In this document: positions 3,203 through 54,662 of the stretch, one piece after another | Layout: every line of letters starts with the position of its first letter | Position numbering within the stretch: the first letter of the stretch is position 1 | Assembly: GCA_002011165.2 (NCBI GenBank) | Contig: MTMI02000007.1 | Span: 62,001 to 126,000, forward strand | DNA: 64,000 nucleotides | From: Candidatus Mnemosynella biddleae | GTDB taxonomy: Archaea > Halobacteriota > Archaeoglobi > Mnemosynellales > Mnemosynellaceae | Reading direction: 5' to 3' | Made by a program: the position numbers and the translations under genes | Notes under the pieces: model-generated | Seen by the model: the letters and a program-made list of their open reading frames with translations, nothing else | What the model was told of the DNA's origin: nothing | The model's database searches: none

Positions 3203-6698
<3,496 letters not shown>

Positions 6699-6708
<10 letters not shown>

Positions 6709-7463
6709 TTACAGATCTTATGACGATTTTCGGAGTTCTAGTCGTCGTCCTTGCGTTTCTCTCATCCGCAATAAGAATAGTGAAGGAGTATGAAAGAGGA
6801 GTCATCTTCAGACTTGGAAGACTTGTTGGAGCAAAAGGTCCCGGTCTCTTCTTTATAATTCCAATTTTCGATAAAATGGTAAAAGTTGATCTCAGAACTG
6901 TGACCTTTGATGTACCTGTTCAAGAAGTCATCACAAAGGATAACGTCCCAGTTAGGGTTAATGCTGTTGTTTATTATCGTGTGGTCGATCCTGAGAAAGC
7001 GGTAATACAAGTGGAGAATTATCATGAAGCAACCTCTCAGATCTCTCAGACAACTCTCAGAAGTATAATTGGTCAGGTCGAGTTAGATCAACTTCTCTCT
7101 GAGAGGGAGGAACTAAATAAAAGGCTTCAGAAGATCATTGATGAAGCCACAGATCCATGGGGTGTGAAGGTCTCTACGGTAGAGATCAAGGATGTGGAAC
7201 TTCCAAAGGAGATGCAAAGAGCGATGGCATCACAGGCTGAAGCTGAAAGAAGCAGAAGGGCCAGAATCATTCAGGCGGAAGGAGAGAGACAAGCTGCAGA
7301 AAAACTCGCAGAAGCTTCGAGAATTTTGGGGGAGAACAAATATGCTCTCTATTTGAGAACACTTCAAACCATTGCGGAAGTTTCCGCAGAAGGCTCAACT
7401 ACTGTAGTTCTTCCACTACCTATCGAACTCTTGGAGTTCTTTAAAAGGTTCGGGGAGAAGTAA
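6699..7463 (+). CDS. stomatin/prohibitin (SPFH) family membrane protein
   Basis: 254 residues: an N-terminal membrane helix (about residues 7-27), an SPFH domain ([38 protein letters not shown]), then a long Glu/Ala/Arg-rich coiled coil ([20 protein letters not shown]) and a hydrophobic tail ending [14 protein letters not shown], the region that partner proteases cut in Pyrococcus. AAAGGAGGTG lies just upstream of the ATG. Forms a two-gene unit with the NfeD protease. Confidence 0.92.
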
Positions 7464-16306: not shown

Positions 16307-16507
16307 TCAGTAAAGCTTCGTATACTTTACACCCTCGGGACAATATTGCACGCAGAGGTTGCAGAATGTGCACTCGTCCTCGTTCTCCTCAACAACCACT
16401 ACCTTCCCGTCTTTCACAGCGAAGATATCTACCGGACAGATTTCTACAAGTTTCTCCGCTTCTTTGCACTTCTCTGGATTGACTTCAACCTTTACGAAAA
16501 CTCCCAT
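16307..16507 (-). CDS. single-cluster ferredoxin-like protein
   Basis: 66 residues. The second half has a full CTFCNLCVQYCPEG motif, but the first motif keeps only two cysteines (CKEAEKLVEICP). By analogy with 2[4Fe-4S] ferredoxins this leaves ligands for one [4Fe-4S] cluster (three Cys of CTFCNLC plus the ICP Cys). It is last in the ccl-sucC-sucD-like operon, 14 nt after the alpha subunit, so it may serve an oxidoreductase linked to that module. Confidence 0.8.
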   Translation of the reverse strand: MGVFVKVEVNPEKCKEAEKLVEICPVDIFAVKDGKVVVVEENEDECTFCNLCVQYCPEGVKYTKLY

Positions 16508-16521
16508 CCTTGCAACCTCCT

Positions 16522-17424
16522 TTACTTCATCTTAAGGACTTCCTTCAACAGAGTAATGATTTCAGAGTGATAATCAGCAACGAGAACTCCAGCATCTCTA
16601 AGAGCTTCCTTCTTTCCTTCAACAGATCCCTTCTTTCCTGTGACGATAACTGCAGCATGACCAAATCTCTGACCGGGCATCTTGTCCACGAAACCGCCTC
16701 CAATGAAAGCAACAACGGGTTTGGAGAATCCATGTTCCTTGATGTAATCTGCGAGAGTCTCTTCTGCAACTGTTCCGGGTTCTCCATAGATCACAACCGC
16801 TCTGGTTTCAGGATCTTTTTCGAGAAGCGGTAGGAGTTCGTGAAACATACTCCCTATTATTGGATCTCCTCCAACATTAATTGCGACACTTTGTCCTATT
16901 CCGTTGACACTCATGAGACTGCATGTCTCAGTCATCATACCTCCACTTCTCGAAAGAACCGCAACAGGCCCAGGTGTGTAGGCTTTATTGGTCTCCTCTG
17001 TTGGCCCTCCAATTGCAGCTAGTTTAGCCTTTCCGGGAACTATTGAACCGAGAGAGTTCGGTCCTATTATTCTAGCTCCATGATCCTTTGCAAATTGGAT
17101 CATCTCAATAACATCGCTTCTTGGAACTCTCTCTGTGAAGACACTCACAAGTTCGATTCCAGCATCTATTGCTTCCATCACAGCATCTTTTGTGAATCTC
17201 GGAGGAACCGAAACAACCGAAGTATTTGCATCATGATTTTCCACAGCTGCTTTCACAGTATTGTAAACCGGAACGCCATGAACCTTCATTCCCTCTTTAC
17301 CCGGAGTGACTCCGGCTACAACCTTTGTTCCATAATCCAGCATCCATTCTGTGAAGGAAGCAGCCTCTCTTCCAGTGATTCCCTGGACAACAACTCTTGT
17401 ATTCTCATCAATTAGAATTCCCAT
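16522..17424 (-). CDS. acyl-CoA synthetase alpha subunit, SucD family (candidate citryl-CoA synthetase small subunit)
   Basis: 300-residue NDP-forming acyl-CoA synthetase alpha subunit: N-terminal CoA-binding Rossmann domain (VVVQGITGREAASF) and ligase domain with the phosphohistidine in GQRFGHAAVIVTGKKG. It deviates from ordinary SucD at GPNSLGSIVPG, where GPNCPG is usual. Adjoins its beta subunit without a gap. The operon also has a short citrate-synthase-like lyase, so citrate, rather than succinate, is a possible substrate. Succinyl-CoA synthetase remains the conservative alternative. Confidence 0.85.
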   Translation of the reverse strand: MGILIDENTRVVVQGITGREAASFTEWMLDYGTKVVAGVTPGKEGMKVHGVPVYNTVKAAVENHDANTSVVSVPPRFTKDAVMEAIDAGIELVSVFTERVPRSDVIEMIQFAKDHGARIIGPNSLGSIVPGKAKLAAIGGPTEETNKAYTPGPVAVLSRSGGMMTETCSLMSVNGIGQSVAINVGGDPIIGSMFHELLPLLEKDPETRAVVIYGEPGTVAEETLADYIKEHGFSKPVVAFIGGGFVDKMPGQRFGHAAVIVTGKKGSVEGKKEALRDAGVLVADYHSEIITLLKEVLKMK

Positions 17425-18756
17425 TTACAATCCCTCCAAAACCTTCTTTGCAACTTCTTCTCCAAGAACTTTCTTAACAAACTCCTCGGTTTTAATGTAC
17501 TGCGCGACTTCCTTCTGGGCTTCCTCTAAACTCTTTCCTTCTTTCTCCTTCTCTTCAATCAGTTTGAGCATCTCAACAGCGAGTTTAGCAGCTTGATCCA
17601 TTCCAAGCCTTCTGTCGTAGTATCTAACTCCGTACTTTCTAAGAATTGCGTATCCATCCTCCTCAAAAGCTCCAGCTCCTCTGTAAACCACCGGATATTC
17701 AGCCGGGTTGATTCCAAGATCCAGCATTGCCTTTATAACTCCTCTTGCAACCAGATCAACTCTTGAGTTAGAGTAGACGTTGTGGCATACGAGAAGTCCC
17801 TTAACTCCAGGTTTCGAAAGCACGAGTTTCGCAAGTCCGTAAACTTTCTTAACTGGTGGATTTCCTCCAACCTCGCAGTAGTTAGCTGGATTTCCTCCAT
17901 ATCTCAGAATGGCATCGAATGTCGTGAGAGATCCTCCACCAGCACCTATTATACATCCTAGAGATCCTCCGAAGTCAATTGCTCTTCCAGCAACTCCTCT
18001 GTGATCTGACATATCGTTCTCCTCAGCGAGTTTTTCAAACTCAGTTGGCTCTCTGGGAGTACTCGGTCTGTCATGAATGCCCATTCCCTCGAGCCTCTGT
18101 TGCTGTCGATACATCGCATCATCTTCTATCTCTATGTGAGCATCTGCAGCCACTATCTTTCCATCCTTTGTTAGAACGAGTGGATTTATCTCAGCAAGGG
18201 TTGTATCGTAATCAACTGCGAGGTTGTATAACCTCATGATTACACTCTGAAGCGCTCTGTCGGCATCCTTTGGAAGTTTCAGGAAATCGGCCATCTTCTT
18301 GGCTTTAAATGCCATCATTCCGTAGAACGGATTAAACCACTCTCTGTACACTCTTGAAGGATCTTTCTCAACCACCTCGTTAATGTCAACTCCACCAGCA
18401 TCGCTTATCAGCATGATTCTCTGTTTCGCAACTTCATCGTAAGTGCAGGCAAGAAAGAGCTCTTTATCAATATTAAGAAGCTCCTCTACAAGGACAGCAA
18501 CGACAGGGAAGTCGTTTATCTTCATTTTAAGGATCTCTTCAGTAAGCTTCTTAGCCTCTTCGGGAGAATTTGCAATCTTTATACCACCTGCTTTCCCCCT
18601 TCCTCCAGTGAGAACTTGAGCTTTAATAACCGCTTTACCTCCGAGCTCTTCAACAGCTTTAGCAGCTTCTTCTGGAGTTTTGACAAGAATCCTCTTAGGT
18701 AAAGGAATTCCGTACTTTTCAAGCAACATTTTGCTTTCGTATTCATATAATCTCAT
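17425..18756 (-). CDS. acyl-CoA synthetase beta subunit, SucC family (candidate citryl-CoA synthetase large subunit)
   Basis: 443 residues, about 55 longer than standard SucC. The ATP-grasp N-terminal domain is ordinary (LYEYESKMLLEKYGIPLP, AQVLTGGRGKAGGI, LAEINPLV), but the ligase half is divergent. It has GAGGGSLTTFDAILRYGG where SucC has GAGLAM, LVCHNVYSNSRVDLVARG in place of the NIFGGI loop, an inserted acidic linker near residues 225-250, and a Glu/Lys-rich C-terminal tail. These features and the neighbouring lyase resemble the two-step ATP-citrate cleavage systems of Aquificaceae (CcsA about 430 aa). Malate- or succinate-CoA ligase activity is also possible. Confidence 0.8.
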   Translation of the reverse strand: MRLYEYESKMLLEKYGIPLPKRILVKTPEEAAKAVEELGGKAVIKAQVLTGGRGKAGGIKIANSPEEAKKLTEEILKMKINDFPVVAVLVEELLNIDKELFLACTYDEVAKQRIMLISDAGGVDINEVVEKDPSRVYREWFNPFYGMMAFKAKKMADFLKLPKDADRALQSVIMRLYNLAVDYDTTLAEINPLVLTKDGKIVAADAHIEIEDDAMYRQQQRLEGMGIHDRPSTPREPTEFEKLAEENDMSDHRGVAGRAIDFGGSLGCIIGAGGGSLTTFDAILRYGGNPANYCEVGGNPPVKKVYGLAKLVLSKPGVKGLLVCHNVYSNSRVDLVARGVIKAMLDLGINPAEYPVVYRGAGAFEEDGYAILRKYGVRYYDRRLGMDQAAKLAVEMLKLIEEKEKEGKSLEEAQKEVAQYIKTEEFVKKVLGEEVAKKVLEGL

Positions 18757-18803
18757 TCTCTTTCACCTCCAAAAAGAAAGGGAAATAAAGAGGGGAGACC
18801 CCC

Positions 18804-19601
18804 TCACTTCTTCTTGAATCTATCGGGAAGAGGTCTGATTTCTGGACCATCATAGGTGCACTCATCAAGAGTGACATGTCTCCAGGGTCTCTCTCTGGTC
18901 ATCTCTTCAATTGCATGGGCTGTCAGACCAGCCGCTCTTGGAACGAAGAATGCTGCCTTTCCAAACATTGGATCCACTCCAATGTCAGCGAGAACTGCTG
19001 CCATTGCACCATCAACGTTTATTATCAGTTTCCTTCCTATGAGCTCCTCAGTTTTAGCCTCAATTGCCTCTGCGAGAGCTATACAATCTCCCGCAACTCC
19101 GTACTCTTTCGCAAGCTCAAATAATCTGAATCTTCTTGAGTCATTGTTGTGGATCGGATGACCAAATCCGAGAATCCTCTTTCCAGCCTCTCTGTGCTCC
19201 TTTATGATAATTTCAGCCATCTCTTCGAGACTCTTTCCTTCTTTCTTTGCTCTCTCAACTCCTTCTTTCAGCATTCTTGCGCATCCTTCAATCGCTCCTC
19301 CGTGCAAGTCTCCAATGGCTATAACTCCCGCTGCAACTGCAGCCTGAACTGGGACACCGCAAGAGGCGACAAATCTAACAGCTCCGGTGGACGGTGCATT
19401 CAATGAGAAGTCAGCCGCAATCACGAACATGTCTTCTAAGATCTTTCCTTCATTTCCCTTTGGAAGCTCTCCTGTCCAGAGAAGATAGACAACGTCTCCA
19501 AAAGTAACGTTTCCGGCGAGCTCCGTAACATCATATCCTCTGATGTAAACTCTGTTTGGCACCACTTTTGATATTGCAGTTCTCCACGGGTTTGACGTCA
19601 T
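18804..19601 (-). CDS. short citrate synthase-family protein, probable citryl-CoA lyase
   Basis: 265 residues, whereas citrate synthases have 370-430. The start (RGYDVTELAGNVTFGDVVYLLWTGELP, split here as RGYDVTELA / VVYLLWTGELP) and all three catalytic positions survive: His in GDLHGGAIEG, His in GFGHPIHNN and Asp in IINVDGAMAA. About 100 residues of the internal helical segment between GELP and the first His are absent. That compact form is what citryl-CoA lyases of the CcsAB-Ccl system show. First gene of the operon, GAGGTGAAAG before the ATG; divergent from porCDAB. Confidence 0.78.
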   Translation of the reverse strand: MTSNPWRTAISKVVPNRVYIRGYDVTELAGNVTFGDVVYLLWTGELPKGNEGKILEDMFVIAADFSLNAPSTGAVRFVASCGVPVQAAVAAGVIAIGDLHGGAIEGCARMLKEGVERAKKEGKSLEEMAEIIIKEHREAGKRILGFGHPIHNNDSRRFRLFELAKEYGVAGDCIALAEAIEAKTEELIGRKLIINVDGAMAAVLADIGVDPMFGKAAFFVPRAAGLTAHAIEEMTRERPWRHVTLDECTYDGPEIRPLPDRFKKK

Positions 19602-19745: not shown

Positions 19746-19812
19746 GGGGGCTTAAAGTTTTAAAAGTCTAAAGGTGAAGTTAAGGGATAACTATGTGAAG
19801 GGAGGTAAAAAG

Positions 19813-20358
19813 GTGAAGGAAATAAGGATTCATGGAAGAGGGGGTCAGGGTTCTGTTACTGCTGCAGAGCTTCTTGCTGTTGCTGCTTTTGAAGATGGCT
19901 ATTATTCTCAAGCGTTTCCGGTTTTTGGAGTGGAGCGAAGGGGCGCACCAGTAATGGCATTTACGAGAGTTGATGAAAAGCCGATCAGAGTGAGATATCA
20001 GGTCTACACACCGGATTACGTCATGGTCCAAGACCCAACACTCATTCCAGCGGGCATCGATGTTCTCGCTGGGTTGAAACCCGGTGGGATGGTAATAGTA
20101 AATACTGCGAGAAAACCGGAAGAAGTAGGACTTAAGGCGGAGAATGTTGAGATCTTAACAATAAATGCAACGAGAATAGCGTTGAAGCACATAGGAAGAC
20201 CGATAACCAATACCACGATGCTTGGAGCTTTTGCAGGAGCAACTGGTTTGGTGAGCTTAGATTCTGTGATAAAAGCCATAGAGGAGCGTTTCACAGATAA
20301 ACTCAGAGAAGTGAATGTTGCTGCGATAAAAGAGGCTTATGAAGCGATAAGGGGTTGA
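19813..20358 (+). CDS. porC: pyruvate:ferredoxin oxidoreductase gamma subunit
   Basis: 181-residue gamma subunit of a four-subunit 2-oxoacid:ferredoxin oxidoreductase. [20 protein letters not shown] is the family N-terminus, with [18 protein letters not shown] next. GTG 19813 is preferred because GGGAGGT lies 6-7 nt upstream. The gamma-delta-alpha-beta order and the TPP subunit motifs fit pyruvate synthase (acetyl-CoA + CO2 + reduced ferredoxin to pyruvate). Confidence 0.9.
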
Positions 20359-20633
20359 TGAATATGGTAGAAAAGCTTACTTTTGCCTGTACGGGACTTC
20401 CCGGGTCTTCGAGGATGAATAAAACAGGGAGCTGGAGAGTCTTCCGTCCAGTAGTTGATCATGAAAAATGCATAAAGTGCGGAACCTGCTGGCTTGTCTG
20501 TCCGGATAATGCAATGAAGAAGATAAATGGAGGAGAGAAATACGAACCTGATCTGGATTACTGTAAAGGTTGTGGAGTCTGCGCTAACGAGTGTCCTAAA
20601 AATGCAATAGAAATGGTTGAGGAGGAGAAGTAA
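20358..20633 (+). CDS. porD: pyruvate:ferredoxin oxidoreductase delta subunit (ferredoxin)
   Basis: 91 residues with two complete [4Fe-4S] motifs, CIKCGTCWLVCP and CKGCGVCANECP, and the delta-specific N-terminal segment ending GSWRVFRPVVDHEKC. It relays electrons from the beta-subunit TPP site to external ferredoxin. ATG 20358 overlaps the porC stop (TGATG); ATG 20364 is an alternative. Confidence 0.92.
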   Translation: MNMVEKLTFACTGLPGSSRMNKTGSWRVFRPVVDHEKCIKCGTCWLVCPDNAMKKINGGEKYEPDLDYCKGCGVCANECPKNAIEMVEEEK

Positions 20634-20634
20634 T

Positions 20635-21822
20635 ATGGTGAAGAAAGTTCTTGAAGGATCACATGCTGTTGCTGAAGCTGTAAAACTTTGCAAACCAGAT
20701 GTCATTTCAGCATACCCAATTACTCCACAGACACACATCATTGAGAGACTCTCCGAATTCCATGCTGACGGAGAGCTTGGAAATTGTCAGTTCATAAGAG
20801 TTGAGTCTGAACACTCCGCTATGTCTGTCTGTTTGGGAGCGTCTCTTGTGGGTGCGAGAGCCTATTCTGCCTCCACTTCTCAGGGACTTGCTTTGATGTA
20901 TGAAGTTCTGTTCAACGTTGCTGGATTAAGACAGCCTGTCGTCATGACTACAGCAAACAGAGCTCTTTCAGCTCCGATAAACATATGGAATGATTGGCAG
21001 GATGCTATATCCGCAAGAGACAGTGGTTGGATTCAACTCTACGCTGAAAATGCTCAAGAAGCTGTTGATTATACAATTCAAGCTTTCAAGATAGCGGAAA
21101 GCCATGACATCCTTCTTCCAGCAATGGTTTGCATAGACGGTTTCGTGATTACTCACACATATGAGGTTGTTGACATCCCATCTCAGGAGGATGTTGATGC
21201 ATTCCTTCCAAAGAAGGTTCCGTATCTTCCGCTTGATCCAGAGAATCCAATTGGATATGGAATGATAGGAACTCCTGAGGTCTATGAGGAGACTAGATAC
21301 CTCATTCAGGAGACTATGGAAAAAGCCAAGAAGAAGATCGTTGAAGTTGGACAAGAGTTCGAGAAAAAGTTTGGAAGACCTCAGGGAGGGTTGATCGATA
21401 CATATAAACTTGAAGACGCCGAGGTTGCAATCCTGTCTATGGGTGCAATTCTTCAGACGATGAGAGAAGTGGTAGATAACCTCAGAGAGGAAGGAGTCCC
21501 AGTTGGTCTCATTAAGGTGAAATCTTACAGACCTTTCCCGAAGGATGAGATAAGGAAAGCTGTAGAGGGCCTCAAGGCTATTGCAGTTATTGATAGGGAC
21601 ATTTCTCTAGGTCATGAGGGTGCTCTATTCACTGATGTGAAATCTGCTTTATATGGAAGTGGAGAGAGACCGCTGGTTAAGGGCTATATAGCTGCACTTG
21701 GAGGTAGAGACTTCCCAGAGACAACTGTCAGAAAGATCGTTGATGACATCATAAAAGTGGCGAAGGAAGGAAAAGTGGATAAAGAAGTTGAATGGCCAGA
21801 TCTCAGAAGAGAGATTCTGTGA
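20635..21822 (+). CDS. porA: pyruvate:ferredoxin oxidoreductase alpha subunit
   Basis: 395-residue alpha subunit. [40 protein letters not shown] (Glu of the TPP activation loop), and [20 protein letters not shown] are typical of PorA rather than KorA. GGAGGAG just before the ATG. Third gene of porCDAB. Confidence 0.93.
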
Positions 21823-21832
21823 GGTGATGGAA

Positions 21833-22732
21833 ATGGCAAGTAAAGTGGATATGGATTTTGAAGGTCTTGCTTCTGGTCATCGAGCATGTGCTGGGTGTGG
21901 TGCTGCAATAGCCGTGAGACTCATTCTCAAGGGAACTGGGAAGAATACGATCATTGCAAATGCAACTGGATGCGTTGAAGTCTTCACAACTCCCTATCCA
22001 GAGTGTGCTTGGAATGTTCCCTACGTTCACTCACTCTTCGAGAACACTGCGGCGGTTGCAGCAGGGATTGAAGCTGGTTTAAAGGCTCTTGGAAAGAAGG
22101 AAGGAATCAATGTTGTTGCAATTGCGGGAGACGGAGGAACCGCAGACATAGGGCTTCAATCTCTTTCGGGAATGCTTGAAAGAGGTCATGATGTGCTTTA
22201 TATAATGTATGATAACGAAGCTTACATGAACACGGGAATCCAGAGAAGTGCTTCAACTCCGTATGGAGCCACTACAACAACTAGTCCAGCTGGAAAAGTT
22301 TCCATCGGTCAGGAAACAAGAAAGAAATTCGTCGCTGAGATTGCTGCTGCGCATCACATTCCGTATGTTGCAACAGCATCAGTGGGTTATCCGAGAGATC
22401 TGATAAACAAGGTGAACAAAGCGGTGAACATTAAAGGACCTAAGTTCATTCAAGTTCATGCACCTTGTGTTCCTGGGTGGAACTATCCAGAAAGTAAAAC
22501 TGTAGAGATTGCTCGCCTTGCAGTTGAGACAGGTCTCTGGCCGATTTTCGAGATGGAGAACGGAGTGATAACTAGCGTTAGGAAGATCAAGGAAAAGAAG
22601 CCAGTAGAGGAGTATTTGAAGGCACAGAGAAGATTTGCTCACCTATTCAAGGACGAGAGAGGAAAGAAGGTCATTGAAGAGATCCAGAAACTAGCAGATG
22701 AGAACATAAAGAGATATGGTTTGATGGACTGA
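21833..22732 (+). CDS. porB: pyruvate:ferredoxin oxidoreductase beta subunit
   Basis: 299-residue TPP-binding subunit. [15 protein letters not shown] gives two cluster cysteines, [20 protein letters not shown] is the PorB substrate region, [15 protein letters not shown] the TPP/Mg loop (GDG...), and [14 protein letters not shown] the downstream metal loop. GAGGTGATGG lies before ATG 21833; ATG 21827 also fits. Its stop overlaps the purO start (TGATG). Confidence 0.93.
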
Positions 22733-23375: not shown

Positions 23376-24257
23376 ATGCATCTTAATGGTGTTGAAATTG
23401 AGGATACTTATGCAGAAGCCTTTCCGATGTTTCTCTCTCGTCTCATCGTAACAGCTGTTACCAAAAAGTGGGCTTTTGAAGCAGCTAAGGAGGCCACCGG
23501 CTTTGCAACTTCCATTATCGGCTGTCCCGCTGAAGCGGGAATTGAGAGAGTTCTCAAAACAGACGAAACACCTGATAGGAGACCTGGAGTCTCAATTCTA
23601 ATCTTTCATGTCTCTAAGAAGAAACTCAAAGAACAAGTTCTTGAAAGAGCAGGTAACTGCGTTCTCACAGCTCCAAGCTGTTCCCTCTTCAATGGACTCG
23701 ATTCTGATGAGAGTTTTGAAATAAAGCTTAGATATTTCGGTGACGGGTTTGAAAAGAAAGTGGAGAAATATGGAAAAGAGCTCTGGAGCATCCCAATAAT
23801 GTCGGGAGAGTTTCTTTACGAGGAGAAAATCGGAGTTAAAAGAGGTGTAGGTGGAGGTAATTTTCTCATTTTTGCCGAAAACGAAATGAGCGGTTTGATA
23901 GCGGCTGAGGTTGCAGTGGATGCAATCTCTGAGCTTGAGGGAGTTATAACTCCATTTGTTGGTGGAATTGTTTCTGCTGGGTCAAAGGTGGGATCGAGGA
24001 AATATAAATTCATGAAAGCAACAACAAATGAGAAGTTCTGTCCGAGTTTGAGAAAAGAAGTGGAGTCACCTCTCCCTGAAGATGTTAAAGCTGTTTATGA
24101 GATTGTGATAAACGGTGTAAGCGAGGAAGCGATCAAAAAGGCGATGAAGATTGGAATAGAGAGTGCAACAAAAGTGAGCGGTGTTCTGAGAATTTCAGCT
24201 GGAAATTATGGAGGAAATCTTGGAAAATACATTATAAATCTTCACGACCTGTGGTGA
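23376..24257 (+). CDS. ftr: formylmethanofuran:tetrahydromethanopterin formyltransferase
   Basis: Transfers the formyl group from formylmethanofuran to H4MPT in the archaeal C1 pathway. 293 residues, standard size. MHLNGVEIEDTYAEAFPMF is the conserved start; GFATSIIGCPAEAGIERVL, the two-domain repeat and the C-terminal RISAGNYGGNLGKY segment are typical. A TATA-like ATATTTTTAAT at about 23,342-23,352 gives it its own promoter after purO. Overlapping-to-adjacent mch supports one C1 unit. Confidence 0.95.
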   Translation: MHLNGVEIEDTYAEAFPMFLSRLIVTAVTKKWAFEAAKEATGFATSIIGCPAEAGIERVLKTDETPDRRPGVSILIFHVSKKKLKEQVLERAGNCVLTAPSCSLFNGLDSDESFEIKLRYFGDGFEKKVEKYGKELWSIPIMSGEFLYEEKIGVKRGVGGGNFLIFAENEMSGLIAAEVAVDAISELEGVITPFVGGIVSAGSKVGSRKYKFMKATTNEKFCPSLRKEVESPLPEDVKAVYEIVINGVSEEAIKKAMKIGIESATKVSGVLRISAGNYGGNLGKYIINLHDLW

Positions 24258-24262
24258 GAACC

Positions 24263-25198
24263 ATGATGAATGAAAGAGCAGCTGAGGTTGTTGAAGATGA
24301 GCTTTTGAGTTATGAGGAAGAGCTCAAAATAGAGGTTCAGGAAAAAGGAGATCACGTTATCGTCGACTGTGGAGTTCGGGCTCCAGGAAGTTATGAAGCA
24401 GGCTTAATATTCACGGAAATATGTATGGGAGGACTTGGAAGTGCGACATTGAGTATCAGGTCATTAGGAGAGATCAATCTTCCCTTCATAGAGATCTTCA
24501 CGGAGTATCCTCTTAAAGCATGTATGTTCTCTCAGATGGCGGGGTGGAGAATAAAGAAGGGGGATTACTTTGCCATGGCATCAGGTCCTGCTAGAGCTCT
24601 TGCAAAAATTCCTTTCGAGCTTTTTGAGGAGTTTGAATACGAAGAGGATTCAGATATTGCAGTTATAACTCTGGAATCCTCGAAACTTCCAAGTAGGGAG
24701 GTTCTTGACTTCATAGCAGAGAGGTGCAATACTCAGAGTGTTTACGCTCTTGTTGCTCCAACTGCAAGCCTTGTTGGATCTGTTCAGATCTCAGGGAGAG
24801 TTGTAGAGACGGCAATTCACAGAATGCACACCTTAGGAATGAATCTGAAAAATATTCTTTCAGCTTGCGGAACTGCTCCGATTGCTCCAATTGCTGAGAA
24901 CGATCTTGAGGCCATGGGAAGGACAAACGATTGTATAATCTATTACGGAAGCGTTCATCTCATTTTAGATGAGATGGAGGATCTTTCACGAGCAGTATCT
25001 TCATCTTCTCAATCTTACGGAGATCCTTTCTATGAGATTTTCAAGTCCCATAACTTCGATTTCTATGCTCTGGATCCCTCTCTTTTCGCTCCAGCCGAGA
25101 TATCAGCGAACTCAATAAAAACAGGGGAATTCAGGAAATTCGGGGATGTAAACTCTGAGGTTCTACTGAGATCATTTGGATTTCAAAAAATCTCCTGA
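24263..25198 (+). CDS. mch: methenyl-tetrahydromethanopterin cyclohydrolase
   Basis: 311-residue cyclohydrolase converting formyl-H4MPT to methenyl-H4MPT, the step after Ftr. GLIFTEICMGGLGSATLS, GWRIKKGDYFAMASGPARAL and the C-terminal GRTNDCIIYYGSVHL are the conserved blocks. ATG 24263 chosen with GGTGAG 5 nt upstream. Together with ftr and Eha it indicates a working H4MPT branch of the Wood-Ljungdahl or methanogenic pathway; no mcr, fwd, mtd or mer gene is inside the window. Confidence 0.95.
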   Translation: MMNERAAEVVEDELLSYEEELKIEVQEKGDHVIVDCGVRAPGSYEAGLIFTEICMGGLGSATLSIRSLGEINLPFIEIFTEYPLKACMFSQMAGWRIKKGDYFAMASGPARALAKIPFELFEEFEYEEDSDIAVITLESSKLPSREVLDFIAERCNTQSVYALVAPTASLVGSVQISGRVVETAIHRMHTLGMNLKNILSACGTAPIAPIAENDLEAMGRTNDCIIYYGSVHLILDEMEDLSRAVSSSSQSYGDPFYEIFKSHNFDFYALDPSLFAPAEISANSIKTGEFRKFGDVNSEVLLRSFGFQKIS

Positions 25199-44445: not shown

Positions 44446-46233
44446 ATGACTGAAATAATCTTTGAACCAATTGGGAAGAAGGTAATCAGCAAAGAGACCC
44501 TTCTCCTTGAGCTCGCAAGGGAAGCAGGAGTTCAGATTAGATCTGATTGTGGAGGTCAGGGAGTCTGCGGTAAGTGCAGGGTTGTTGTTGTGGAAGCTGA
44601 GAATCTCAACGGAATTACGGAGTTTGAGAAAAGGCATTTGACAGAAGTGGAAATGAAAAAGGGTTATCGTTTAGCGTGTCAACTCAGGGTTATAGGGAAA
44701 GCCAGAATATTCATTCCTCCAGAGAGCAGAACTGAGACACGTAAAATTTCTGATCTCTCTCTGGAAAAGGATGTGGAATTATCTCCTGGAGTTAAGAAGA
44801 TTTACCTGAAACTTAGAAAACCATCTTTAGAAGATCCTCTTGCGGATTTAGAGAGGTTAAAAAGAGAAATTGGAGATTTTGAGATATCTTTACCTCTTCT
44901 CAGAAAATTACCTTTCACCCTCAGAGAATCAGATTGGAACATTACGGCGGTTCTCTGGAATGAAAAGCTTGTAGGAGTTGAGGAAGGGGATACAAGGGGA
45001 AGATGTTATGGAATCGCGATTGATATCGGCTCATCAAAGCTCATCTGTCATCTCGTAGATCTTAACACAGGTGAGACTGTCTCAAAAGGCTTCTCAGAAA
45101 ATCCTCAGATAGCATACGGAGAAGACATTGTTTCAAGAATCACTTATGCATCCAAGAGCGAGGAGAATTTAAGGAAACTACAAAAAATTGTCGTTGAAGC
45201 TCTGAATGAGATTATTCGAAGAATTTGTAGAGAAGCAAATGTGAGGGAAGAAGAGATTTATGAAGCTGTCATCGTTGGAAATTCCGTGATGCATCATCTC
45301 TTTTTTGGAATCACGCCCAAATTCATCGGAGCATCTCCTTTCGCACCCGCGGTTAGAAATTTCATAAGCTATCCTTCGAGAGAGATTGGATTGGAAATCA
45401 ATGAAGAAGCTCTTGTGACATCTCTTCCTCTAATTGCCGGATTTGTTGGTGCGGATGCAGTCTCAAATCTGCTCTTTACAAGGATATACAAGAGCGAAGA
45501 GTTAAGCATGGTAATAGATATAGGGACAAATACTGAGATTCTTCTCGGAAATAAGAATGGAATTCTTGTTTGCTCCGCTCCTTCAGGTCCAGCATTTGAA
45601 GGCGCTCACATAACTTATGGGATGAAAGCTGTGAGTGGAGCAATCGAAAAAGTCAAAATCGCTGATACTGAGATCTTCTGTAAAACAATAAATGGAGAAA
45701 GACCTAGAGGAATTTGTGGGAGTGGTATGATCGATCTGATTGCAGAGTTATACAAAAATGGGTGGATAAATAGAAACGGGAAGTTTGTGAGAAAGGGCGA
45801 GAGAATTTTAGAGAAATCTCCTCGGAGACTAATCCTTATCTCTCCTGAGAAAAGTTGGAACGGAAGAGAAATAACTGTAAGTGAAAAAGATATAAATGAG
45901 TTTTTAATGGCAAAAGGAGCGATAAGAGCGGGTTGGATGACTCTTATGAAGAAACTCGGAATTCCTCCAGAGAAGATCGAGAGGATTTATATTGCTGGCT
46001 CCTTTGGAAGACATGTGGATGTCGAAAATGCAAAGGTCATAGGTCTTCTTCCAGAGATTGAGAACCCCAAAGTCATCTTTGTGGGAGACAGTGCAGTAGA
46101 AGGAGCTAAAATGGTCCTTAAGTCCATAAAGGAGAGAGAAGAGGTTAAAAAAGCTCTAAAAATAGTTGAATATGTGGAACTTTCTGCAGAGAGTGAGTTT
46201 TATCGAACTTTTGTAAGATCAATCCAGCTGTGA
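44446..46233 (+). CDS. RACE-type reductive activator of corrinoid proteins (ASKHA ATPase with 2Fe-2S domain)
   Basis: 595 residues. The N-terminal plant-type [2Fe-2S] domain has CGGQGVCGKC and a later RLACQLRV. After a linker comes an ASKHA ATPase region with AIDIGSSKLICHLVD, DIGTNTEILLGN, and SGPAFEGAHITYGMKA (DUF4445). RamA/RACE proteins use ATP to re-reduce inactive Co(II) corrinoids. No corrinoid protein or methyltransferase gene is next to it here. Confidence 0.88.
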   Translation: MTEIIFEPIGKKVISKETLLLELAREAGVQIRSDCGGQGVCGKCRVVVVEAENLNGITEFEKRHLTEVEMKKGYRLACQLRVIGKARIFIPPESRTETRKISDLSLEKDVELSPGVKKIYLKLRKPSLEDPLADLERLKREIGDFEISLPLLRKLPFTLRESDWNITAVLWNEKLVGVEEGDTRGRCYGIAIDIGSSKLICHLVDLNTGETVSKGFSENPQIAYGEDIVSRITYASKSEENLRKLQKIVVEALNEIIRRICREANVREEEIYEAVIVGNSVMHHLFFGITPKFIGASPFAPAVRNFISYPSREIGLEINEEALVTSLPLIAGFVGADAVSNLLFTRIYKSEELSMVIDIGTNTEILLGNKNGILVCSAPSGPAFEGAHITYGMKAVSGAIEKVKIADTEIFCKTINGERPRGICGSGMIDLIAELYKNGWINRNGKFVRKGERILEKSPRRLILISPEKSWNGREITVSEKDINEFLMAKGAIRAGWMTLMKKLGIPPEKIERIYIAGSFGRHVDVENAKVIGLLPEIENPKVIFVGDSAVEGAKMVLKSIKEREEVKKALKIVEYVELSAESEFYRTFVRSIQL

Positions 46234-48497: not shown

Positions 48498-48509
48498 AAC
48501 ACGCCGTAT
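48265..48509. repeat. left copy of the 245-bp terminal direct repeat (attL region)
   Basis: Identical over 245 bp to 63,149-63,393. It covers the 3' part of tRNA-Glu from the anticodon stem, 1 nt of acceptor-adjacent spacer, the reverse-strand integrase codons 1-77, and 12 nt upstream of that ATG. Identity stops at once on both sides. Confidence 0.9.
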
Positions 48510-48542
48510 TGTTTCGAGGTATATATCATTAATCATCCCTCA

Positions 48543-49388
48543 TCAACCCTCCATACTAATTTGAAAGAGAATTTTTCTCGGAAGAGGAAACGTTTTCAAG
48601 CGATATCCAAAAGTTTTTTCAATCCAATCTCTAATCGCCTCATCAGAAAGCTGATAATTTGAATTATAGAACTTAGCAAGTCTTTTTCGTTGTTCTGCAT
48701 TAAGCATCTCGAAAAACTCAGCATCATCTCTGTGTATTTCACTAAGTGCTTTTTTGAATGTATCATTTCTTTTCTCGAGTTCTCTTGCAATCTGTTCATG
48801 GGTTTTTCTAATTTCTCGCTGGAAATTGTAAATTCTCTTAAGAATTTCATCATCCAAACTCTCTGTGAAATCGTGTATGAACTTTGAAAAAATCTCCTCG
48901 TAAAACGGAGTGAGACGGTAAAACTTTGCTTTTTTAGCGTGAAAATCTCCTGCCGTCGTCTTTTTCCGAATCACGGATTTGAAGATCTCTTTTTCTTTCA
49001 GATTTTCAGATGGGGGAACTTCTTCTATTATTCCGGCACTGAGGAGATCTTCGAGAGATCTCTGGAGAAGAGATGGATTTATTTGGAGAACCTTCCTGAA
49101 TCCCTGAAAATATCCAACTTTTGTAACAAGTAACATGAAGATGATTGTCATCTTTGTTTTACTCTTCGTGACTTTTAAGTTAGTTACCAAATTTTCGAGA
49201 AAAGTAACCAATTCAGATATATTAGAGAAAGAATTGGAGTTAGATATATAGTTACTGAAGTAAGTAACTAACTCTCCTTTATTACTATATACCCCTGAAT
49301 TAGTTACTGAATTTTGATTTTTAGTAACCATCATATTATCTAAGTTAGTTACATTTTTCTCGAAATTTGTGACTAACTTATTGCTCAT
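48543..49388 (-). CDS. winged-helix regulator with repeated Val-Thr N-terminus
   Basis: 281 residues. The first 90 contain eight Val-Thr units (LVTNFEKNVTNL, MVTKNQNSVTNS, LVTYFSNYISNS, LVTFLENLVTNL, KVTK), a low-complexity repeat. Residues 90-190 look like a winged helix (FRKVLQINPSLLQRSLEDLL, then KFYRLTPFYEEIFSKF), and the rest is helical and charged. The coding DNA of the repeat has paired GTTAC/GTAAC elements that could be binding sites. Overlaps the upstream nuclease gene by 11 nt. Possibly replication initiator or regulator; no function known to me. Confidence 0.75.
   Translation of the reverse strand: MSNKLVTNFEKNVTNLDNMMVTKNQNSVTNSGVYSNKGELVTYFSNYISNSNSFSNISELVTFLENLVTNLKVTKSKTKMTIIFMLLVTKVGYFQGFRKVLQINPSLLQRSLEDLLSAGIIEEVPPSENLKEKEIFKSVIRKKTTAGDFHAKKAKFYRLTPFYEEIFSKFIHDFTESLDDEILKRIYNFQREIRKTHEQIARELEKRNDTFKKALSEIHRDDAEFFEMLNAEQRKRLAKFYNSNYQLSDEAIRDWIEKTFGYRLKTFPLPRKILFQISMEG
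49178..49380. repeat. cluster of GTTAC/GTAAC elements, imperfect inverted repeats
   Basis: GTTAC occurs at about 49,183, 49,251, 49,303 and 49,348 and the complementary GTAAC at about 49,205, 49,264 and 49,324. Two units of about 30 bp, starting TTAGTTAC and ending AGTAACCA, lie 120 bp apart. All are Val-Thr codons of the regulator on the minus strand, so the array may be a protein repeat, an iteron-like site, or both. Confidence 0.6.
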
Positions 49389-49956
49389 CTTCGCCTCCTC
49401 CAAAGAAATCAAATAAATTTCTAATAGAGGCTGAAACTTTAGCCTCTTCAACTAGTTCTCTTACTACTCTATCGACTTCCACTTTCGCCAAATGCTCAAT
49501 TAAATACTTGATTGAACCTCTATGGTATTTCGCTGGAATGAGAATTTTAATGAAATCCCTCTCCCATAAGATCCATCCAATTCCTGAATCCAGCAGTAAA
49601 ATCAAACTTTCAACGTTTGGAACAATGTTTCTTGTCGCAATCCACATGTAGTCGACATATTCTCTCCTTATTACAGCCTGTGAAACCACTTTTCTGAAGT
49701 CACTTTCTTTGAATTCAATGCCAATCACTCGCCTATACTTTCTGTCACTTCTCCACTCCAAGTGCATCAAAAGATCAAATTCCAGACGTTCTTTTTCTGT
49801 AAAAATCCAATGTCGTGGATATACCTCAATATTCAGATCTTCATAGATTATTCTTCTAAGATGCCAATCCACAATACAATTTGCTACATCATAAGCCCTC
49901 TTCTCTTCCCGTTTACCATTCTTATTTAGCCATTCTTTGTATTCTTTAAGATTCAT
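49378..49956 (-). CDS. PD-(D/E)XK nuclease-like protein
   Basis: 192 residues. LEFDLLMHLEWRSDRKYRRV followed by IGIEFKESDFRKVVSQAVIR gives the D...(E)xK arrangement of this fold, and YVDYMWIATRNIVP follows as in restriction-like nucleases. SSV1 and relatives carry nucleases of this superfamily (such as D212). ATG 49,956 has GCAGGAG 4 nt upstream. Part of the early operon of overlapping genes. Confidence 0.72.
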   Translation of the reverse strand: MNLKEYKEWLNKNGKREEKRAYDVANCIVDWHLRRIIYEDLNIEVYPRHWIFTEKERLEFDLLMHLEWRSDRKYRRVIGIEFKESDFRKVVSQAVIRREYVDYMWIATRNIVPNVESLILLLDSGIGWILWERDFIKILIPAKYHRGSIKYLIEHLAKVEVDRVVRELVEEAKVSASIRNLFDFFGGGEDEQ

Positions 49957-50093
49957 CTCCTGCACCTCGCAAAGCTCAGCATCGCAACAAAGTCCTCCCA
50001 AGCCTCTCCTTTCTCTATTCTCTCTTCTTTGTGAACGAGCTTGCCTCTCTCATAACTCTCAGTGACAGAAATCCTCAGAACGGTTCTTAGCAT
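49953..50093 (-). CDS. 46-aa hypothetical protein in the early operon
   Basis: A short frame with start ATG overlapping the upstream stop (TGATG), AAGGAGTG ribosome binding site, and stop overlapping the nuclease gene start. Begins MLRTVLRISVTESYERGKLV and ends FARCRR; charged and helical. Tight overlaps on both sides argue that it is a real gene. Confidence 0.6.
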   Translation of the reverse strand: MLRTVLRISVTESYERGKLVHKEERIEKGEAWEDFVAMLSFARCRR

Positions 50094-50530
50094 CACTCCT
50101 TCCCCCCGTAACGCCTTGCGAAGAACCTCTTCAGCTCATCTCTTTTCATCCTCGCAAACTCAGATCTCGAAAAAAGTATCTGCTTCTGATTCCTCCCATT
50201 CACCGACACAGCCTCTCTCTTCTCAAATCTGTCAATCTCTGTGACGAAAAACTCTTTGCCGTCGAAAACGATGAAGAACGAATCAGATCTCAGCATTTTT
50301 GCAACTTTCTTCAAGAGAACATACTCGTGAGCTGGGAGAAAGAACGTGCTGTAAGCAGAGGCATTCGCATACCTCTTGAGCTCTGCTATTGCCTCGATTC
50401 TCTTTCCAACTTCAATCACAAGATCGATGTCGCAGATGTTCAACTTTTTCCCATTCAGAGATATTGAAAGTCCAACATCAACAGGCTTATACGGACAGTT
50501 TTCACAAAGCTGAATCTGTCTCGAGATCAT
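50093..50530 (-). CDS. Cas4/Hjc-like PD-(D/E)XK nuclease domain protein
   Basis: 145 residues. ICDIDLVIEVGKRIEAIAELKRY shows D...ExK spacing (given in parts: ICDIDLVIE, AIAELKRY) typical of RecB/Cas4-type nucleases. CENCPYKP near the N-terminus gives a CxxC, but the four-cysteine cluster of Cas4 is not complete. The C-terminus is basic (MKRDELKRFFARRYGGKE). No cas genes or CRISPR nearby, so a viral recombination or repair nuclease is more likely. Confidence 0.65.
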   Translation of the reverse strand: MISRQIQLCENCPYKPVDVGLSISLNGKKLNICDIDLVIEVGKRIEAIAELKRYANASAYSTFFLPAHEYVLLKKVAKMLRSDSFFIVFDGKEFFVTEIDRFEKREAVSVNGRNQKQILFSRSEFARMKRDELKRFFARRYGGKE

Positions 50531-50533
50531 CGC

Positions 50534-50662
50534 CTAAACCTCCACGACAGTAAAATATGGGCAATGTCCACATCGCCTAAATCCACATTCCTCCGGTTCG
50601 AAATCATCTCTGACTGCAGACATGTAGTAATAAGAATACGGGTTTTCACAGACTCCTTTCAT
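50534..50662 (-). CDS. 42-aa cysteine-rich small protein
   Basis: Frame starting MKGVCENPYSYYYMSAVRDD and containing ECGFRRCGHCPYF, so five cysteines that could bind zinc. The ATG overlaps the stop of the zinc-ribbon gene (TGATG), AAAGGAG is just downstream for reuse, and 3 nt separate it from the Cas4-like gene. Confidence 0.6.
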   Translation of the reverse strand: MKGVCENPYSYYYMSAVRDDFEPEECGFRRCGHCPYFTVVEV

Positions 50663-50823
50663 CAAAACCAGCCTCCTAAACCATCACCATACTGCTCTCT
50701 AAACGCATTGATACCTTCCCTAATACAATTCCAACAGAATACTTCCCCATCAATTTCATAGACCATTCCACCTGAACCGCAGCAATCACAAACTCCTTCA
50801 CGTTTTTTCATCTTCTCCATCAT
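50662..50823 (-). CDS. 53-aa zinc-ribbon protein
   Basis: Starts MMEKMKKREGVCDCCGSGGM and continues with FCWNCIREGINAF, giving CDCC and CWNC knuckles of a zinc ribbon. ATG overlaps the stop of the RHH gene and its stop overlaps the next ATG. Likely DNA-binding or protein-interaction module of the virus early region. Confidence 0.65.
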   Translation of the reverse strand: MMEKMKKREGVCDCCGSGGMVYEIDGEVFCWNCIREGINAFREQYGDGLGGWF

Positions 50824-51029
50824 TCCTGCACCTCCTCAGAAGCAGAAGCGAGCTTATCAGCTCTGACAAAACCATGCCTCTCTGGATTAATTCCGAGAAG
50901 TCCCTTCTCCACGAGGTCTTTTTTGATGAGTTCTCTGATGTATGGCGAGATTTTATCCCAACCCTCTATTTTAGCCGCTTTTCTGATTAGTTCGTTCCAT
51001 CTTGGGGGAACATCACTCCATACCTTCAT
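50820..51029 (-). CDS. RHH-like small DNA-binding protein
   Basis: 69 residues. KVWSDVPPRWNELIRKAAKI, then ISPYIRELIKKDLVEKGLLG has the strand-helix-helix order of CopG-type regulators. First gene of the seven-gene early operon reading toward the tRNA. Controls probably its own promoter and the divergent winged-helix gene. Confidence 0.72.
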   Translation of the reverse strand: MKVWSDVPPRWNELIRKAAKIEGWDKISPYIRELIKKDLVEKGLLGINPERHGFVRADKLASASEEVQE

Positions 51030-51040
51030 GTTGATTTCCT

Positions 51041-51142
51041 CCTACTTAGTGGAATATATTCTACAAAATGTATTTAAAAGTTTCTAAAAATCAACTTAGT
51101 AGGAAGTTCTCAAGCTACACTTATTAGTTTCTAAAACTCAAC
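51041..51142. promoter_or_regulatory. divergent early control region with repeats
   Basis: Between the RHH gene and the winged-helix gene (51,030-51,151). It has GAATATATTC (51,052-51,061), a palindrome doubling as TATA box of the RHH operon, and two copies of AGTTTCTAAAANTCAAC (51,079-51,095 and 51,126-51,142, one mismatch). CCTACTTAG (51,041-51,049) is nearly repeated inverted as CTTAGTAGG (51,094-51,102). Such layered repeats suggest a genetic switch bound by both flanking regulators. Confidence 0.6.
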
Positions 51143-51151
51143 ATCATTGTA

Positions 51152-51517
51152 ATGCAGAAACAAAATGAAGAACAAAGTGAGTTTAGAAACATCTTGAAAA
51201 CATTAGGCAAACGTGGTGGAGTGGAGATTCTCTTTGCTCTAAAAGATGGAAGGAAAAAATGGGCAGATCTCGAAAAAGCAGTAAAAGAGAAAAAATCAAC
51301 ATCTTTTAGGATTAAAGAACTTCTGCGCTCTGGATTAGTTCAAGTTATTATAATTCACGATACTCCAACCGGAACAAAATATTATCAGCTCACTCCATTT
51401 GGAGAAAAGATTCTCGAAAAAATTGAGGAGATTGAAAGACTCGTTGAGGAGGAGAAAAAGAAGAGACTTCCGGAAGAGCCGGAAGAGTTTGTTGGAGAGA
51501 TTTTAAAGGATGAGTGA
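51152..51517 (+). CDS. winged-helix transcriptional regulator
   Basis: 121 residues. KRGGVEILFALKDGRKKWAD, SFRIKELLRSGLVQVIIIHD and KYYQLTPFGEKILEKIEEIE form an ArsR/HxlR-like winged helix with a C-terminal coiled coil. Divergent from the early operon. It probably represses or activates one side of the divergent region. Confidence 0.78.
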   Translation: MQKQNEEQSEFRNILKTLGKRGGVEILFALKDGRKKWADLEKAVKEKKSTSFRIKELLRSGLVQVIIIHDTPTGTKYYQLTPFGEKILEKIEEIERLVEEEKKKRLPEEPEEFVGEILKDE

Positions 51518-51581
51518 GTCCAATAAATTGCTAAAGAGATTTTAAATAGATGCGTTAGGGGCAGAGGTTAATAGAAAGACT

Positions 51582-51590
51582 AATATAAAG
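51582..51590 (+). promoter_or_regulatory. TATA box of the ATPase-TOPRIM pair
   Basis: AATATAAAG is centred 27 bp before the ATPase ATG, so the mRNA is likely leaderless. Confidence 0.5.
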
Positions 51591-51612
51591 CGAACTTCCG
51601 AGAATACATACG

Positions 51613-53022
51613 ATGAAGTTAGTTGAAAATGGAGAATATAAGATAACAGAAATTAAGATTAAGAACTTTAAAAGTCTTAAAGACGTTAAAATTGAACTTA
51701 AAGGATTTAATCTGCTTGTTGGTCGTAATGGTGCGGGAAAAACGAACATCATAGAGGCTTTTAAACTCCTTAGAGAAATAAGACGATCCCCCGATTTTAT
51801 GTATTATAACCCATTCCATGAGTGGAGAGGGTATCAGAATGTAGTTTGGCGTGGTGAAGAAAAATTACCCATTACCTTATCTTACAAGCTTCATATACAG
51901 GATTATGAAATTTATTATGACATTTCTGTAACTGGCATTGGAGGTAGGTTTGAAGTTCTTAGAGAGAGTGTTAGTGTATCAAATGTGGTCAACATCATTC
52001 GTGAAGGAAATAAAGTTATAATAAAACACGCTCCCGAATTTATTGAGAGTGTGTGGAACGGTATTAAGTCGTTCCACCTACCTCCATTTTTGTGGAAATC
52101 CATCTCAAAAGAGAGTAAAGACTCATTAATTTACCAAGAGTATGAGTTACAAGATTCCTCTCCATGGAAACTTCTACCATATTATGGATACAGTGCCCAC
52201 TATAATGAGGGAATTGCAATTATGATCTTTAGCATACCCACCAAAAACGGCTCTCCACCGATACTTGTCTCTCCGGTTATTGAAGTTAGGAGAATGATGG
52301 CTGTTAGGAAATTTGGCAAATCTGAAATGAGAGAAGAGATCCATAGAGAACCCCTTATAGGATATGTTCTATTTCCTCCGAGAATGCAAAATATTCTCGT
52401 ATTAAAACAATTAAATTTCAAAGCAATTTCCGAGCCACATCTGGTTAAGAGAGAGATTATGCTATCGGAAGATGGTAGCAACTTAGCAAACGTACTCCAT
52501 ACAATGTACACAGACAAAGGAGGAATCCCTCCCAAGATTCAGAGAGTCATTCGGTATATTTTTGGTGATTTGGAGATTGGTATGCACTTAACAGAGGATG
52601 GAAGGGTTCAAGTTCAAGTATATGAAGATGGCTACCCCCTCCAAGGTTCGATGATTCCAGATGGCTTTTGGAAAGTATTGAGCATTCTTGTAGCTATCGA
52701 ACTAAAACCTACTCTGATATTGATAGATGAGCTGGAAAACTCACTCCATCCAGAGGCAATTGAATACATCGTATATGAACTGAAAAATTCGGGATGTACG
52801 GTAATAGCTTCCACCCACTCGCCAGCAGTAGTAGATATAGTAGAGCCAGAAGATTTGATTTTAGTTGAGAGAGATATAGAAGAGGGAACTAAAGTAGAAA
52901 GAATAAAGGATGTAGAAGCAGTGAAGCGTTGGTTAAGGGAGAGAGGAATAACGTTAAGTGAGGGGTGGCTTTATGGTTCGATCTTCTCAGAGGAAGGGAA
53001 GGAAGATCTTGATACTATGTGA
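51613..53022 (+). CDS. SMC/RecF-like ABC ATPase (OLD-like, RloA-type)
   Basis: 469 residues. ITEIKIKNFKSLKDVKIELK and NLLVGRNGAGKTNIIEAFKL (Walker A) open the protein; a long middle insert follows; then SMIPDGFWKVLSILVAIELK and LILIDELENSLHPEAIEYIV (signature-like and Walker B), with ASTHSP as H-loop. This ABC-AAA fold is common in defence genes such as OLD, PtuA and RloA. The downstream TOPRIM-like gene overlaps it by 50 nt. Confidence 0.85.
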   Translation: MKLVENGEYKITEIKIKNFKSLKDVKIELKGFNLLVGRNGAGKTNIIEAFKLLREIRRSPDFMYYNPFHEWRGYQNVVWRGEEKLPITLSYKLHIQDYEIYYDISVTGIGGRFEVLRESVSVSNVVNIIREGNKVIIKHAPEFIESVWNGIKSFHLPPFLWKSISKESKDSLIYQEYELQDSSPWKLLPYYGYSAHYNEGIAIMIFSIPTKNGSPPILVSPVIEVRRMMAVRKFGKSEMREEIHREPLIGYVLFPPRMQNILVLKQLNFKAISEPHLVKREIMLSEDGSNLANVLHTMYTDKGGIPPKIQRVIRYIFGDLEIGMHLTEDGRVQVQVYEDGYPLQGSMIPDGFWKVLSILVAIELKPTLILIDELENSLHPEAIEYIVYELKNSGCTVIASTHSPAVVDIVEPEDLILVERDIEEGTKVERIKDVEAVKRWLRERGITLSEGWLYGSIFSEEGKEDLDTM

Positions 53023-54656: not shown

Positions 54657-54662
54657 ATTAGA

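Follow-up and report, generated by a model that had tools for sequence, protein, structure and literature searches.

Within a 64-kb stretch of contig MTMI02000007.1 from Candidatus Mnemosynella biddleae, which we call the window and whose positions serve as coordinates unless another locus is named, four closely spaced genes encode a short citrate-synthase-type lyase (Ccl1), the SucC-like and SucD-like subunits of a coenzyme A (CoA) ligase, and a ferredoxin-like protein (Table 1). We refer to these genes as the cassette. The SucC-like and SucD-like reading frames abut, and gaps of 47 and 14 nucleotides separate Ccl from SucC and sucD from the ferredoxin-like gene, respectively. An initial annotation of this DNA had read the first three genes as a citryl-CoA synthetase and citryl-CoA lyase set, and all three reading frames are present with the lengths and places it gave. 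The ferredoxin-like gene was not mentioned there, though its end is the coordinate at which that annotation started.

Table 1. Genes of the cassette and neighbouring features in the window.
Feature	Position	Strand	Remarks
Ccl1, short citrate-synthase-type (hydroxy)acyl-CoA lyase	18804..19601	-	265 aa; profile matches, motifs
SucC-like (ATP-grasp) large subunit of CoA ligase	17425..18756	-	443 aa
SucD-like (CoA-binding) small subunit	16522..17424	-	300 aa
Ferredoxin-like protein	16307..16507	-	66 aa; after sucD in 6/6 readable cassettes
Facing pyruvate synthase operon	19774..22732	+	Context only; POR subunit families
porG	19774-20358	+	
porD	20355-20633	+	
porA	20617-21822	+	
porB	21788-22732	+	
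Ftr and Mch (tetrahydromethanopterin pathway)	23376..25198	+	Context only

Ccl1 showed the features of a shortened citrate synthase (CS). It matched the Pfam family Citrate_synt in two pieces, at positions 9-56 and 167-355 of 357, with about 110 internal positions skipped, and residues H100, H148 and D197 fell in the alignment within HGG, GFGH and NVD motifs. We take this H/H/D set to be the catalytic residues of the citrate synthase family. The initial description of a lyase that keeps three catalytic residues and misses about 100 internal ones was therefore accurate. Ccl1 exceeded the cut-offs of two NCBIfam "citryl-CoA lyase" subfamilies (264 versus 245 bits and 252 versus 212 bits), and its closest sequence was the Hydrogenobacter Ccl (6hxp) at 284.9 bits, followed by the next at 109.7 bits. 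An AlphaFold2 model of the 265-aa protein, built on a shallow alignment (7 rows; mean predicted local distance difference test score, pLDDT, 73.5), also had 6hxp as its top match in the Protein Data Bank (template modelling score, TM, 0.73). The 40 best matches were all structures of citryl-CoA lyase or ATP-citrate lyase (ACL).

Individual positions set Ccl1 and its relatives apart from the reference proteins. Of 13 aligned rows, 12 have His at a position where Ccl1 alone has Phe (F65). The Arg of D(P/S)R and that of (A/S/P/G)R-x-x-GL are conserved in all ten lyase rows, with R or K at a third place; we take these positions to be the Arg residues with which citrate synthase binds the 2-oxo acid. 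At the GHR of the Ccl, ACL and CS references, the Arg of which is presumably equivalent to R976 of ACLY, the ten rows all read GHP or GHA. The excerpted ACLY study describes R976 as contacting CoA and an R976E mutant as showing background activity (PMC10115795). The lyase tree left seven of its ten inner branches unsupported.

Both ligase subunits scored below the cut-offs of the succinyl-CoA synthetase (SCS) models, with 294.5 versus 370 bits for the SucC-like protein and 292.4 versus 353.2 bits for the SucD-like protein, and the raw scores of both were higher to SCS than to CcsA and CcsB. The malate-CoA ligase (MtkA) model gave 222.7 bits, far under its cut-off of 604, and we rejected a malate-CoA ligase on this score. 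The CHNVYSNSR loop of the SucC-like protein (C324-R332) and the GPNS of the SucD-like protein are both present as initially noted, and the phospho-His motif RFGHA (H256) is intact, with FGHA invariant across all six SucD-like proteins. Among cassette rows, a C-terminal extension of the SucC-like protein is confined to Mnemosynella.

Pocket motifs were taken from an L-INS-i alignment of six cassette rows, CcsA, ACL and nine SCS rows. The cassette ligases have in common with CcsA and ACL a loop Asn (N330 in the window), where SCS has Gly, and a GGG(A/G)S-type stretch. With CcsA they also have in common GGNP and a DHRG-AG insert, which is shortened in JdFR-42. The second Arg of "VRR", found in CcsA and ACL, is replaced in every cassette row (G/G/V/S/S/S; G360 in the window), and the nine SCS rows have L, V or M there. 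We take this second Arg to be Arg379 of human ACLY, binding citrate together with Asn346 and Thr348. Excerpts of two docking studies name these three ACLY residues as ligand contacts (PMC9504748, PMC9504274).

The cassette ligases formed a branch of their own in phylogenetic analysis. A first tree of 37 rows (30 SCS, six cassette and CcsA), for which the program flagged long branches, split the SCS rows from the rest at 99/100. In a second tree of 17 rows, with SCS thinned to nine and one ACL added, so that CcsA and ACL were single rows and malate-CoA ligase was absent, supports were 100/99 for SCS, 93/95 for the cassette group and 97/95 for CcsA with ACL. Constraining the cassette to group with CcsA in this tree was 9.1 log-likelihood units worse (p-AU 0.034). 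These supports and the constraint test lead us to conclude that, on these data, the ligase belongs neither with SCS nor with CcsA, and an ordinary succinyl-CoA synthetase was rejected because the ligase lies outside SCS in both trees. The clear grouping with succinyl-CoA synthetases that would have counted against the initial annotation did not occur. Its proposed enzyme set is thus supported as a two-step ligase and lyase of the citryl-CoA synthetase/citryl-CoA lyase (CCS/CCL) type, with a lyase nearest Ccl in sequence and fold, but not as CcsAB, given the constraint test and the replaced Arg. A model of the SucC-like protein (5 rows; pLDDT 87.1, predicted TM score 0.60) had an SCS as its first fold match and CcsA at rank 6, a predicted likeness that does not discriminate SCS from CCS.

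The ferredoxin-like gene is a constant member of the cassette, following sucD in the window, Ca. M. bozhongmuii, JdFR-42, G061, G102 and G060. The six proteins align with 19 invariant columns, and all four that were scanned passed the Pfam Fer4 cut-off; the NCBIfam scan gave no match at cut-off among the matches listed. Eight Cys are present in four of the six; the two Mnemosynella copies have lost two Cys from the first cluster and retain six. The window protein accordingly has one full 4-Cys motif (46, 49, 52, 56) and a second motif reduced to two Cys (14, 24). The reactions expected of the cassette are non-redox, which makes the conservation of an Fe-S protein in it a specific oddity that can be tested.

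Relatives of the cassette were found in both Archaea and Actinomycetota. A scan of genome contigs with four lyases as queries gave 10 loci. The short lyase lies with a ligase in JdFR-42, Ca. M. bozhongmuii and two Actinomycetes metagenome-assembled genomes (MAGs), and lacks an adjoining SucCD-like ligase among the listed reading frames in Thaumarchaeota UBA141, two Ca. Borrarchaeum, RBG_16_50_20 and a second Mnemosynella copy. In a class-level search around an Actinomycetes MAG, three of 40 genomes (G060, G061 and G102, the query genome counted) had the SucC-like protein with an identity of at least 90%. The window SucC had matches at E <= 1e-60 in 31 of 294 genomes of its own phylum; among 28 reading frames recovered from 30 of these phylum loci, the cassette-type loop occurred only in the window and JdFR-42, and GGITRCD occurred in 21. 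Gene order is Ccl-SucC-SucD-Fdx in Mnemosynella versus SucC-SucD-Fdx-Ccl in JdFR-42 and Actinomycetota.

Gene neighbourhoods differed among these genomes. As initially noted, the window cassette faces a pyruvate synthase operon and lies near tetrahydromethanopterin genes, with IMP cyclohydrolase and then Ftr and Mch downstream of the operon, and in Ca. M. bozhongmuii a 5' Ccl fragment adjoins the same pyruvate synthase arrangement. The cassettes of G061 and G102 lie divergent to an operon that encodes a B12-binding protein, MutL, methylaspartate mutase E (MutE) and methylaspartate ammonia-lyase; this neighbourhood was thus seen in two of the three Actinomycetota MAGs, the G060 contig being too short to show it. 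All three contain a class I fumarase (PF05681), a family that, in an excerpted source, includes mesaconases (PMC4682846). CitF was found in none of the nine genomes searched, these three included. HpcH_HpaI matches in the three MAGs scored 20.8 to 25.0 bits (cut-off 25) in reading frames of 475, 475 and 366 aa, and from these marginal scores and sizes they probably belong to another family. In the Archaeoglobi JdFR-42 (L065:7722-9041) and G036 (L056:415-1785; by eye), an MmgE/PrpD gene directly follows and overlaps Ccl. Full-length citrate synthase was not found in G060 or G061, the two of the three Actinomycetota MAGs searched for it, and is present in JdFR-42, G036, UBA141 and RBG_16_50_20.

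Plasmid relatives of the lyase suggest that the family name does not fix citrate as the substrate, since those annotated "citryl-CoA lyase" lie in catabolic clusters with an adjoining CoA transferase in three of the four regions read (from 12 listed of 241 matching records). One of these three CoA-transferase regions has tricarboxylate transporter genes, and none of the four has a SucCD-like ligase beside the lyase. No further cassettes were gained from plasmid records: 104 matched the SucC-like query at E 1e-5, and identity did not exceed 34.7% in the eight listed, of which six carry a succinate-CoA ligase annotation and two carry none.

We read the cassette as an ATP-dependent two-step lyase of a 2-hydroxy acid, on a branch separate from CcsAB/Ccl, with citramalate as the likeliest family substrate, cleaved to acetyl-CoA and pyruvate; our confidence in this falls a little short of even. 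We infer the predicted chemistry from family membership, and the substrate from pocket residues and neighbours. In the first step, the SucC-like and SucD-like subunits would use a phospho-histidine mechanism to turn a 2-hydroxy acid, CoA and ATP into a hydroxyacyl-CoA, ADP and Pi. In the second, the short citrate-synthase fold would catalyse a retro-Claisen cleavage to acetyl-CoA and a 2-oxo acid. With the C5 acid citramalate, the overall reaction would be citramalate + ATP + CoA -> acetyl-CoA + pyruvate. The small Fe-S protein could be a structural or regulatory subunit, or an electron carrier for a pyruvate oxidoreductase that uses the product.

The enzymes of the methylaspartate pathway make mesaconate. 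Three points make citramalate our first choice: the neighbours in two MAGs are enzymes of this kind, those Actinomycetota MAGs yielded no other gene for citramalate cleavage, and the pocket lacks one Arg yet retains the hydroxy-acid contact. Loss of one carboxylate-binding Arg with retention of the hydroxy-acid loop would suit an acid with one carboxylate fewer. In Actinomycetota the cassette would supply the final step that the methylaspartate pathway otherwise lacks. In Mnemosynella, the facing pyruvate synthase would use the pyruvate formed, or the whole reaction could be reversed to yield citramalate with a gain of ATP. The cassette may represent a third, hitherto undescribed kind of ATP-dependent hydroxyacid lyase, in which a ligase of SucC/SucD type, a lyase of citrate-synthase fold and a dedicated small Fe-S protein make or break citramalate, common to deep-subsurface Archaeoglobi and to Actinomycetota with glutamate fermentation of the methylaspartate type, and replacing citramalate lyase in the latter; we regard this wider proposal as possible but somewhat doubtful. 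Searches of a library of open-licence papers for citramalyl-CoA with methylaspartate or citramalate lyase, for citramalyl-CoA lyase with citryl-CoA lyase and, among the papers listed, for CCS/CCL in archaea gave no description of such a system.

Several observations weigh against citramalate. The NCBI subfamily name of the lyase is citryl-CoA lyase, and its kept 2-oxo-acid Arg positions, as judged from the alignment, give no sign of a lost oxaloacetate site. MutE had no match in the host genome and none above cut-off in any of 60 genomes, which leaves citramalate without an obvious source in Mnemosynella. The methylaspartate neighbourhood in Actinomycetota is divergent, not part of the same transcript, and the MmgE/PrpD genes beside Ccl fit citrate or methylcitrate equally. 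The Mnemosynella pocket also differs from that of its relatives (F65 in the lyase, S329 and S331 in the ligase loop), so its substrate may differ. For the host itself, a methylaspartate-linked pathway was rejected, as there is no MutE match. We also rejected an HpcH-type citramalyl-CoA lyase as the host enzyme, since its lone HpcH_HpaI gene reads by eye as aldolase-type and stands beside an Ldh2-type dehydrogenase.

True two-step ATP citrate cleavage, in which citrate, CoA and ATP would give citryl-CoA and then acetyl-CoA and oxaloacetate, supplying oxaloacetate as well as acetyl-CoA, is in our judgement rather unlikely. The profile scores and nearest structure of the lyase suit it, as do the loop Asn and other CCS/ACL motifs of the ligase. 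Excerpts of the published Mnemosynellales reconstruction make oxaloacetate supply a puzzle, as pyruvate carboxylase and conversion of malate to oxaloacetate are lacking and the oxaloacetate source is an open question (PMC9635834). Against citrate stand the replaced CcsA/ACL Arg and the separation of the ligase from CcsA, the absence of a citrate-to-isocitrate step in the excerpted Mnemosynellales description (PMC9635834), and the full-length citrate synthase that JdFR-42 and G036 also carry. Cassette relatives lie beside methylaspartate or MmgE/PrpD genes, not a reductive tricarboxylic acid (TCA) cycle set, and with the missing isocitrate step the reductive TCA branch initially suggested is not supported, though the genome has an HMGL/IDH/aconitase-like cluster (below).

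The host genome, an Archaeoglobi MAG of 1.5 Mb in 11 contigs with an estimated completeness of 100% (congener Ca. M. bozhongmuii), gives citrate some further support. It contains the ordinary sucCD for which a check had been proposed, above model cut-offs and following 2-oxoacid:ferredoxin oxidoreductase genes (L016, C7). It also has three HMGL-family synthase genes with one marginal match, and two aconitase-family large subunits. A row on C7 (L016:14801-18793) comprises an HMGL gene (411 aa), an isocitrate dehydrogenase (IDH)-like gene, and aconitase-like large and small subunit genes, at subfamily cut-offs only. As this set lies below every equivalog cut-off, a citrate, homocitrate or other 2-oxo acid extension route would be possible, and the set is a candidate Re-citrate synthase or homocitrate route on sequence grounds. 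The aconitate hydratase model gave the C7 aconitase-like subunit 400 bits versus 326 for the C3 LeuC, both below cut-off. On C11 (L145:189-2023), an HpcH_HpaI-type aldolase gene overlaps an Ldh2-type malate/lactate dehydrogenase-like gene, and this may bear on the reported absence of malate dehydrogenase.

Two further readings, taken together, strike us as improbable: the same chemistry on a different 2-hydroxy acid (2-methylcitrate, a longer 2-alkylmalate or one used by Mnemosynella alone), or a cassette that works toward synthesis and gains ATP as a citramalate or citrate synthase. The changes peculiar to Mnemosynella in the lyase, the ligase loop and the ferredoxin would fit such a reading, as would MmgE/PrpD beside Ccl in JdFR-42 and G036. 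A Citrate_synt profile search, covering another check that had been proposed, found no full-length citrate synthase in the host genome, which also suits such a reading. However, no Mnemosynella neighbour indicates a particular acid, and HMGL-family synthases are present that could make citramalate or isopropylmalate ordinarily. The same genome holds a second short Ccl (C3:56009-56779; L005:8007-8780), 53% identical to Ccl1, which retains His where Ccl1 has Phe. It is the last gene of a run that also holds two FAD-oxidase genes and genes of Fe-S/CCG type, and a pair of genes for an ADP-forming acyl-CoA synthetase lies about 8 kb away. The two adjoining 470-aa FAD-linked oxidase genes (L005:3861-5273 and 5400-6812) have almost the same sequence for the most part, with differences confined to the N-terminal end and the final third, a pattern that a recent duplication or gene conversion would leave.

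That the ligase is a divergent succinyl-CoA (or malate-CoA) synthetase lying by chance beside an unrelated short citrate synthase is very improbable: the raw scores and the top fold match of the SucC-like model lean that way, but the ligase stands apart from the 30 SCS rows, its loop and GGNP are unlike SCS, the malate-CoA ligase score is low, an ordinary sucCD exists elsewhere in the genome, and the cassette is conserved between phyla.

The substrate of this branch matters for how pathways are counted. In an excerpted source, CCL and two CCS subunits are given as key enzymes of rTCA2 (PMC9802188). Genes for short citrate synthases bear the name "citryl-CoA lyase" and may be tallied in favour of a reductive TCA cycle, and such counts would be unsafe if this branch cleaves citramalate. 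If our preferred reading is true, glutamate fermentation would gain an ATP-coupled variant yielding acetyl-CoA, not acetate, and the evolution of SCS, citryl-CoA synthetase and ACL would gain a third branch with a different pocket.

Elsewhere in the window, an integrase-like reading frame was seen by eye at 62269-63417 on the reverse strand. With it, a run of reading frames without obvious housekeeping function (about 48500-61000) is possibly an integrated element. A reading frame at 44446-46233, whose N-terminal stretch is 2Fe-2S-like and whose body is ASKHA-like, resembles by eye a corrinoid reductive activator.

Compared with known systems, the cassette combines familiar parts in a different arrangement. 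It has the overall architecture, phospho-His motif and EINP motif of succinyl-CoA synthetase (SucCD), but differs in loop, insert and GGNP, and forms a separate branch. In the clostridial methylaspartate pathway, citramalate is cleaved to a C2 unit and pyruvate by a CitDEF-type lyase; the cassette would fill this same step with unrelated proteins. PRK06224 "citryl-CoA lyases" of Proteobacteria belong to the same lyase family (12 listed matches about 33-36% identical to the G102 lyase), but adjoin a CoA transferase in most regions read instead of a SucCD-like ligase. ATP-citrate lyase (6hxj, human ACLY) unites both predicted activities in one complex and has GGGAS, ANY-E and the loop Asn in common with the cassette, whereas its lyase is fused to the SucD-like part, which in the cassette is a separate reading frame, and the cassette has no equivalent of Arg379. 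The closest likeness is to Hydrogenobacter CcsA/CcsB (6hxq) and Ccl (6hxp), also two SCS-superfamily ligase subunits with a short citrate-synthase-fold lyase; Ccl is the nearest solved structure to the cassette lyase, and CcsA has GGNP, the loop Asn and the DHRG-AG insert. CcsA groups with ACL, not with the cassette, which has G, S or V for its second Arg. The cassette lyases have GHP or GHA for the GHR of Ccl, and the ferredoxin-like gene belongs to the cassette, unlike CcsAB/Ccl.

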